DNA of 20,778 nucleotides from a virus: positions 1 to 20,778 of IMG/VR virus record IMGVR_UViG_3300047510_000724; one strand, given 5' to 3'. This document shows, one piece after another, positions 13,377-14,470 of this stretch. Position 1 is the stretch's first letter. Each line of letters opens with the position of its first letter. The position numbers and the translations under genes were made by a program. A model generated the notes under the pieces. That model worked only from the letters and a program-made list of their open reading frames with translations, was not told where the DNA came from and made no database searches.

Positions 13377-13394
13377 TCATTTATCATATTCGGT

Positions 13395-13413
13395 AGAGCG
13401 AATACTTCGCTCT
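13395..13413 (+). terminator. Hairpin after the gp26 / 51-position genes
   Basis: AGAGCGAA, loop TAC and TTCGCTCT form a perfect 8-bp stem 18 nt after the stop. It is followed by TGAATTTC, a weak T-run, so it may terminate partially or protect the 3' end. The 9-mer TCGCTCTTG from its right arm recurs at 13431-13439. Confidence 0.5.
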
Positions 13414-13501
13414 TGAATTTCGCATCGCTATCGCTCTTGCTCATTCAGTTTATTTTTAGACTACAATTTTTTTTAGTTAACACGATAAAGTAGAGTAGAT
13501 A

Positions 13502-13569
13502 CAAGTGATTAACATTTTGATTACTTGACACTGATGATTCAGTCACACTTAGCCGTTTTACCGGCTAAG
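13502..13569. other. Three adjacent inverted repeats in the convergent gap
   Basis: Three small hairpins follow one another: CAAGTGAT/ATTACTTG (13502-13509 with 13520-13527, one G-U on plus-strand RNA), an imperfect TGAC-TGA stem at 13526-13545, and CTTAGCCG/CGGCTAAG (13548-13555 with 13562-13569) with a 6-nt TTTTAC loop. The last abuts the minus-strand terminator. No U-run follows on the plus strand, so these are not simple terminators; they may be 3'-end elements of the plus-strand message or part of the ncRNA region. Confidence 0.4.
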
Positions 13570-13571
13570 AT

Positions 13572-13596
13572 AAAAAACTTGACACCGAAGTCCAAG
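13572..13596 (-). terminator. UUCG-loop terminator on the minus strand
   Basis: On the minus strand CTTGGAC-TTCG-GTGTCAAG folds with a cUUCGg tetraloop and one bulge, and six T's follow directly. This is a classic factor-independent terminator. It lies 445 nt past the last protein stop codon (14042), which marks the stretch before it as deliberately transcribed RNA. Confidence 0.75.
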
Positions 13597-14010
13597 CCAC
13601 ATTTAACTAAAGCAACTCGTTAAAGTTAGGGCGGTCACGCTGTACCCTTTTACGCTCATCTTATATGACGCTACTGCAAGGCCCAGTTAAAATCGCTTTT
13701 GCAGTATGTAGGTTGTAATAGTTCACCAGAGCCTACTCATTTTAGCTTTACTATACTAATCCCAGTTCTTTTCAAGCAATCGAACTTCGTCCTGTGAAGG
13801 ATAGTGGGCGTTAGTCTCTGCTACTGCACAGAATTTCCTTCCCCAGCGCAACCCTAGTGCCTGGTTTTATGGGTGTCTAAGTATATCGGCGACACAAGCC
13901 TATCAGTAGTGATCTTGTCGTTGTGAGTTTGCTAATAGAGATGCAAAAATGCTGTGAGTTCTACGTTGCGTAGTGTATTAGCCAGGATGAGTATGTAATA
14001 GATATGTAGT
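13572..14010 (-). ncRNA. Candidate structured non-coding RNA ending in a factor-independent terminator
   Basis: This is most of a 665-bp gap (13377-14041) with no protein gene. Read on the minus strand, paired elements, given by plus coordinates, are: 13982-13986 with 13860-13864 closing a domain; 13976-13982 with 13931-13937 (7 bp) enclosing a 5-bp CAA-loop hairpin at 13961-13973 and a small hairpin at 13943-13952; a two-part hairpin at 13890-13920; 13836-13841 with 13796-13801; 13782-13786 with 13764-13768; 13732-13736 with 13708-13712; 13699-13706 with 13672-13679 (8 bp); and 13653-13670. It then ends in a terminator. The 5' end is uncertain; TATATAAC near 14010 is a weak promoter guess, and the RNA may instead be cut from the operon transcript. 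No tRNA, tmRNA or RNase P signature is visible. The class is unknown. Confidence 0.5.
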
Positions 14011-14041
14011 TATATAGGGAGCCAAGTGGGTTAAAACCCGA

Positions 14042-14470
14042 TTATAGTTTGTTTAGTATATGTGAGCCATGTACACGAACCTGTATGTGTCCGTTATAAT
14101 AATCCATTGTTTCAAGTACTTTTCTATCAAATTGTTCTTTAGCTTCTAGGTAAGAACAAGCAGATTTAGATCGGCAGTAGTGTAAAATTTCTCTAGAGAA
14201 GTTATCTTCACCTAATAATTCTACATCTTTGCTTAACTCGGGACTAGAACCAAAGTAGGTCAACCAGTCGCTGTCAATTTTACTGCGAATCTTCTTCTTT
14301 TTCTTAACACCGTTCTTTTGTTTGACAACTTTGTAGGTAGTCTTAGAGAACTTTGCTAATTTCTTACCAACATACTTCCGATTGTTGGTTTTGTTTGTAA
14401 TCAAATAAACAAAACCAACACAATCTTCAGGCAGTTCACTGACAATGGTACCTTGATAGTACCATGTCAT
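14042..14470 (-). CDS. GIY-YIG family nuclease, 142 aa
   Basis: The GIY-YIG core is seen as GFVYL at residues 19-23 and KYVGKK at 32-37, followed by a very basic linker (a KKKKKIRSK run near residue 75) and SDWLTYFGSSPEL, then REILHYCRSKSACSYLEAKEQF, which should hold the catalytic Glu. The family cuts DNA; in T4-like phages it includes intron-encoded and free-standing homing endonucleases (I-TevI, Seg proteins) as well as resident genes of unknown target. Only one domain is present, with no DNA-binding tail such as that of I-TevI. It starts 1 nt after the Hc1-like gene stop without a clear ribosome site, so it is probably translationally coupled. It is the last protein gene before the candidate ncRNA. 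Nuclease family is firm; homing is not shown. Confidence 0.75.
   Translation of the reverse strand: MTWYYQGTIVSELPEDCVGFVYLITNKTNNRKYVGKKLAKFSKTTYKVVKQKNGVKKKKKIRSKIDSDWLTYFGSSPELSKDVELLGEDNFSREILHYCRSKSACSYLEAKEQFDRKVLETMDYYNGHIQVRVHGSHILNKL

Follow-up and report, generated by a model that had tools for sequence, protein, structure and literature searches.

The window, that is, the whole 20,778-bp virus record analyzed here, contains what comparative sequence analysis indicates is a real, large, multi-pseudoknot phage RNA with the Polynucleobacter-1 motif (RF01718) as its core. The RNA gene is the last element of the gp55-gp47-gp46-GIY-YIG operon in T4-like phages that are relatives of jumbo phages, and the conserved RNA extends on the minus strand from ~13909 to 13515, about 400 nt or ~3 times the length of the Rfam model. 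While the core is already known as RF01718, the full-length architecture, the pseudoknots, the wide distribution in phages, and a twin heptamer near the 3′ end are new.

Genomic setting

The gene content of the window is T4-like and includes a gp23 capsid gene (PF07068), gp46 and gp47 of the SbcC/SbcD type, a T4 baseplate hub protein, and a late sigma factor resembling gp55. The nearest isolates are jumbo phages, e.g., PA5oct, MIJ3, and Phosso, at 48 to 52% identity for gp47 and 63 to 66% for the capsid. Between a minus-strand SegE-like GIY-YIG gene and a small convergent gene lies a gap (13377-14041) that the preliminary description of this DNA gave as 665 bp without a gene, and we likewise found no convincing gene between 13376 and 14042. 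The gene directly upstream of the RNA is as follows.

14042 to 14470, minus strand: SegE-like GIY-YIG endonuclease gene (PF19835, E 1.5e-32)

This gene sits in PHROG 447, which is labeled "NAD synthetase," a name carried by many phage records; the Pfam match shows instead that its predicted product is a GIY-YIG endonuclease. A small histone H1-like Hc1 protein (PF07432; 14472-14660, minus strand) is encoded between gp46 and the GIY-YIG gene and is kept in relatives. No tRNA or tmRNA genes were found in the window by ARAGORN, and a search of the minus strand for promoter-like sites gave none.

Relation to RF01718 and other RNA families

RF01718 matches positions 13755 to 13900 of the minus strand with 87.5 bits (E 9.5e-18; model positions 1 to 141 of 141; cmscan) against a curated cutoff of 37 bits, and is the sole Rfam family above cutoff in the gap. 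The whole model is thus matched by the middle 146 nt of the window RNA, and the suggestion that this might be an undescribed class is wrong for the core. GOLLD, ROOL, HEARO, and group I introns had been raised as candidates, and neither these nor any other Rfam family gave a further match in 13377-14041 at an E value of 1 or below. However, the RF01718 model accounts for only about one-third of the conserved RNA: it lacks the 5′ strand of pseudoknot PK1, pseudoknots PK3 and PK4, helices P8 to P14, and the heptamers, and its consensus line contains no pseudoknot. Polynucleobacter-1 was listed in a 2010 survey as a probable RNA, likely cis-regulatory, from Burkholderiales and freshwater or estuary samples (Weinberg et al. 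2010, PMC2864571), whereas here it is mainly a phage RNA; we found no literature naming the family besides that description.

Like the window RNA, GOLLD and ROOL are large, ornate, multi-pseudoknot phage RNAs of unknown function, but the window RNA is shorter and has other gene neighbors, and GOLLD and ROOL often lie near tRNA genes. HEARO and group I introns resemble the window RNA in that an endonuclease gene adjoins the RNA; here, however, that neighbor is of the GIY-YIG type (PF19835) and there is no flanking exon, the RNA being preceded by a stop codon and facing a convergent gene. Neither a tRNA-like domain nor a tag peptide, as expected of a tmRNA, was detected (ARAGORN). Abundant noncoding transcripts have also been described in ICP1 and PLE (PMC7567579), a lytic phage and its satellite, much as the present RNA occurs in phages and an integrated element; those transcripts are known by RNA-seq and ours by structure, and no sequence relation is claimed.

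Secondary structure, pseudoknots, and covariation

We drew a structure from the sequences and scored it on MAFFT alignments that were not fitted to it, using 26 window-like RNAs (group A) and 50 more distant ones (group B). The elements, all on the minus strand, are as follows.

13510 to 13928, minus strand: stretch used for the full-length alignment (A1; 26 window-like RNAs, 82% mean column identity, compensatory changes)
13925 to 13990, minus strand: optional 5′ domain with a three-way-junction-like stem (close relatives only; one double change)
13821 to 13909, minus strand: PK1, CUACUG (13909-13904) with CAGUAG (13826-13821) in the P4 loop
13873 to 13900, minus strand: PK2, an H-type pseudoknot, GGC/GCC (13900-13898, 13890-13888) interlocked with P2 (13895-13891, 13877-13873)
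13844 to 13863, minus strand: P3 (pairing 96% in A and 87% in B, where six pairs show double changes)
13755 to 13815, minus strand: P7 (95 to 99% paired), enclosing hairpins P5 and P6 (P6 100% paired)
13708 to 13736, minus strand: P8 hairpin, not covered by the Rfam model (pairing 100% in A and 63% in B, where the alignment is uncertain)
13673 to 13705, minus strand: hairpin P9 (double changes in five pairs in A and five in B)
13602 to 13691, minus strand: PK3, P9 loop UUUAACU (13691-13685) with AGUUAAA (13608-13602)
13629 to 13669, minus strand: PK4, GUCA/UGAC (13669-13666, 13637-13634) interlocked with P11 GGG/CCC (13647-13645, 13631-13629)
13614 to 13627, minus strand: P12, a small hairpin in its group A form (pairing 93.3%, without double changes)
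13578 to 13596, minus strand: P13 hairpin, described earlier as a UUCG terminator (pairing 62.5% in A and 47.5% in B; the T-run lacks conservation)
13577 to 13585, minus strand: heptamer copy 1, GUGUCAAGU (same sequence as copy 2; the identity of the two covaries throughout the family)
13548 to 13569, minus strand: P14 hairpin, flanked by the two heptamers (pairing 99.5% in A and 72.6% in B)
13523 to 13531, minus strand: heptamer copy 2, GUGUCAAGU (identical to copy 1; identity covariation across the family)

In group A, 96.2% of cells were paired and 25 of 83 pairs showed changes on both sides, with 162 double-change cells against 48 in shuffles; in group B, 87.5% of cells were paired and both-sided changes occurred in 50 of 76 pairs, with 420 double-change cells against 133. 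None of 500 shuffles did as well in either group. With the partners slid, pairing fell to 30 to 42% in A and 36 to 43% in B, a control that favors the structure since the latter derives in part from the scored sequences. Covariation was also assessed with a home-made R-scape-like test against a tree-based null, which returned 12 significant pairs in group B and 7 in group A, most of them Watson-Crick. By comparison, folding of the single sequence gave no thermodynamic signal (z = 0.07). Because thermodynamics alone is signal-free here, the count of complementary arms made on the single sequence in the preliminary description is no better than chance, and it is the covariation that provides proof.

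The four pseudoknots, PK1 to PK4, are all absent from the Rfam model. The 5′ strand of PK1 lies just upstream of that model, and its partner is the loop of the Rfam hairpin P4; PK1 was paired in 100% of cells in group A (one double-change pair) and 82% in group B (three). P2 was 98 to 100% and PK2 91 to 95% paired across the two groups. PK3 was paired in 98.3% of cells in A, with three double-change pairs, and in 95.6% in B, with five, while PK4/P11 was 98 to 100% paired with double changes present. Support is weak for P13 and, in group B, for P8.

These alignments bear on several elements that had been read from the single sequence. The 8-bp stem with a 19-nt loop corresponds to P9 (13705-13699 with 13679-13673), in which five of the seven counted pairs change on both sides. 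The CCTGG/CCAGG closing arm is not supported; CCAGG at ~13865-13861 belongs to P3, where its partner is GC..CTGG at ~13852-13843; an A-U pair of P3 is replaced by U-A in 10 of the 26 sequences. The 7-bp stem enclosing two hairpins does exist (13976-13982 with 13931-13937), but in close relatives only, with one both-sided change among seven variants, and the whole 5′ domain is missing in other lineages. In one relative (L004), this optional domain carries an insertion of ~90 nt, 5′ of the core.

At the 3′ end, relatives' alignments place conservation well beyond the Rfam model: a GGUAC..ACCGCC pseudoknot is followed by a GUGUGAC box and the second heptamer at ~13523. The reading of the UUCG hairpin as the RNA's own terminator is not supported, given that it was not picked up in a terminator scan, most relatives lack its T-run, its stem is paired in 62.5% of group A cells, and strong conservation continues ~60 nt past it to about 13515. 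Overall, the proposal of a large, ornate noncoding RNA ending the gp55 operon receives strong support from covariation, but its boundaries have to be moved, the RNA reaching ~13515. Three relatives (L003, L004, and L015) share a near-identical core with the window but have a different 3′ domain and heptamer, an apparent exchange of the 3′ cassette by recombination.

Twin heptamer

Two copies of a heptamer, ~50 nt apart around the 3′ hairpin, are the same within an RNA and different between RNAs. In group B, 4 of the 12 significant pairs were noncomplementary, and these involve the two heptamers and their immediate flank. At three of these four pairs, the two letters were equal apart from a single exception, the counts being GG30/AA25 (columns 331 and 384), GG29/AA26 (335 and 388), and UU36/AA13/GG5 plus one AU (337 and 390); identity between copies at three positions was 87/88, 84/85, and 83/85. 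Mapped on the tree, changes on the same branch in both copies numbered 7, 8, and 12, against 0.3, 0.4, and 1.0 expected. Among 94 RNAs, the exact stretch common to both copies was mostly 7 nt (mean 7.2, compared with 5.4 when copies were swapped between RNAs) and had fixed differences at its borders, which read ACUC-V-G and AUCU-V-A in the majority of group B. Spacing is mostly 47 to 60 nt (range, 47 to 76), and an RNA helix and a GUG(UG)AC box precede both copies.

We found no consistent Watson-Crick partner of the heptamer within the RNA or nearby, and a search of six partial phage genomes for a second conserved heptamer or complement site returned only the RNA itself and one unconvincing pair. 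A conserved UUGUUU located past P7, which could form wobble pairs with some group B heptamers, was rejected as a partner because it does not track the heptamer in the GCAUAAU or changed-P7 lineages and is absent in group A. CsrA-type GGA sites were set aside, as the motif's first base is A or G; so was a T4 gene 60-like bypass, there being no reading frame and an identity that exceeds codon length, and so was target-site duplication, because the positions bordering the heptamer differ in a fixed way. For 7-nt repeats whose flanks carry fixed differences, gene conversion is an unlikely explanation. The simplest reading of these patterns would be a single partner that reads both copies.

Distribution

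A 26-base motif was found in 15 viral contigs, and looser motifs gave 44 and then at least 120 matches; the core motif occurs in more than 100 viral contigs. As loci were picked by this motif, CACTATCCTTNACAGGACG is invariant by construction. RF01718 matched above cutoff in 46 of 50 diverse records tested. In 132 of 150 loci, the distance from the end of a GIY-YIG homologue to the core motif downstream is at most 400 nt, and the start of the RNA often all but coincides with the stop codon of that homologue. The window and its relatives have a convergent downstream gene; at other loci it is on the same strand, as in some group B loci with a gene of >270 aa ~360 to 400 nt past the core motif, and the following genes vary between lineages. 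Several matches were discarded: L021 and L024 (enterobacterial prophage) are chance matches with no Rfam or R1 match, and L027 and L042 have almost that sequence; the L150 match lies inside an HNH-like coding gene; and L087 and L142 were excluded as weak.

We found no isolated phage carrying the RNA. The gp47/capsid relatives PA5oct, Phosso, RaK2, SE_PL, and Vibrio 2.275.O have a similar gene order but no credible model match, and whole-record searches of XacN1 and Atu_ph07 gave no match. ORF-poor gaps of ~0.75 to 1.1 kb without a model match occupy a similar gene-order position in PA5oct (L205 10388-11532), Phosso (L206 11477-12492), and SE_PL (L209 9701-10453). GACACUAUCCUUGUGACA in PA5oct may serve as a lead toward a very diverged homologue.

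Two copies lie outside the gp46/GIY-YIG locus. A one-genome-per-species scan yielded one match, in a Nitrospira MAG, within an insertion of ~9 to 10 kb (L168 13592 to L169 7607; G001:C2 about 59.6 to 68.6 kb) that appears to split a PilY1-like gene, the boundaries and the PilY1 name being our own reading of flanks without a Pfam match. The element encodes two integrase-like proteins (one just below the Pfam cutoff), an AAA ATPase, and a BstXI-like restriction-modification pair made up of a DNA methyltransferase and a restriction enzyme of the BstXI family, and its RNA has the 3′ part in common with the phage copies, including the hairpin and the GUGUG box. A diverged copy in phage contig L103 (3311-3494, plus strand; R1 E 2.8e-12) stands among unrelated genes; its neighbors read from their translations as GroEL-, ClpP-, and ThyA-like, with no gp46 or GIY-YIG there. 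Together, these copies speak against a function that depends on GIY-YIG or gp46 alone.

Possible functions

The best explanation, which we put at about even odds, is that this phage RNA with its several pseudoknots acts in trans and carries a bivalent recognition tag that evolves fast. The gap would then give rise to a structured RNA ~400 nt long. Its synthesis would probably be as the 3′ end of the gp55-gp47-gp46-GIY-YIG transcript, from which processing would release it, or alternatively from a phage-specific promoter inside the GIY-YIG gene. The compact four-pseudoknot scaffold would display the two heptamer copies near its 3′ end, flanking P14, and one trans partner, which could be a cognate RNA-binding protein of the phage or else a nucleic acid of complementary sequence, would bind both. 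Because a single partner would read both heptamers, the RNA might act as a bivalent binding platform or decoy during infection.

Since the minus strand showed no promoter-like site, the RNA may simply be a 3′ untranslated element of the gp46/GIY-YIG mRNA, whose pseudoknotted fold blocks 3′ exonucleases and stabilizes the operon transcript in cis. The start of the RNA within a few tens of nucleotides of the GIY-YIG stop codon in many loci and the conserved surrounding gene order also fit this explanation. However, the RNA occurs without GIY-YIG or gp46 in the Nitrospira element and L103, and a simple exonuclease block does not need ~400 nt, four pseudoknots, and a pair of heptamers changing in step; we therefore regard it as rather unlikely, although worth keeping in view.

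We find it improbable that copies of the RNA assemble with each other into a ring or cage in which the conserved loops and the heptamers make the contacts. There is precedent in GOLLD and ROOL, which form homo-oligomers (PMC12286853), and the present RNA is likewise large, phage borne, and rich in pseudoknots, with no obvious obligate protein partner gene. Yet the GOLLD and ROOL models do not match, and the heptamers fail to explain contacts between copies because they are identical rather than self-complementary and their complement is missing from the RNA. Similarly improbable is that the twin heptamer is a DNA feature, such as two sites at which a phage protein or a recombinase binds, and that it overlaps a structured RNA with which it has nothing to do. 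Fixed flanks around identical cores, at a spacing of mostly 47 to 60 nt, do resemble paired protein sites, but the flanks are nonpalindromic, the spacing ranges from 47 to 76 nt, no further conserved copies occur elsewhere in long phage records, and an RNA helix and the GUG(UG)AC box precede both copies. Cis regulation of a downstream gene, the leaning of the original survey, is highly doubtful despite the same-strand gene in some group B loci, since the only downstream gene in the window is convergent, leaving no gene to regulate in cis, the position upstream of a gene on which that leaning (not an Rfam criterion) depends is not found in the window or its relatives, and the following genes differ by lineage.

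Returning to the trans-acting reading, we can speculate further, with low confidence, that phages encode in this RNA a bivalent guide or decoy that owes its specificity to the fast-evolving twin heptamer, each phage type's heptamer fitting its own partner, so that the RNA would work as an immunity-group-like determinant of giant phages that integrated elements have borrowed. A barely studied motif from 2010 thus becomes the core of a large pseudoknotted phage RNA that is widespread in viral contigs and present also in an integrated mobile element, and with the full architecture known, its function can be put to the test. The covariation in identity of two heptamers with no internal partner is an unusual evolutionary signature, one that predicts a specific, findable trans partner.
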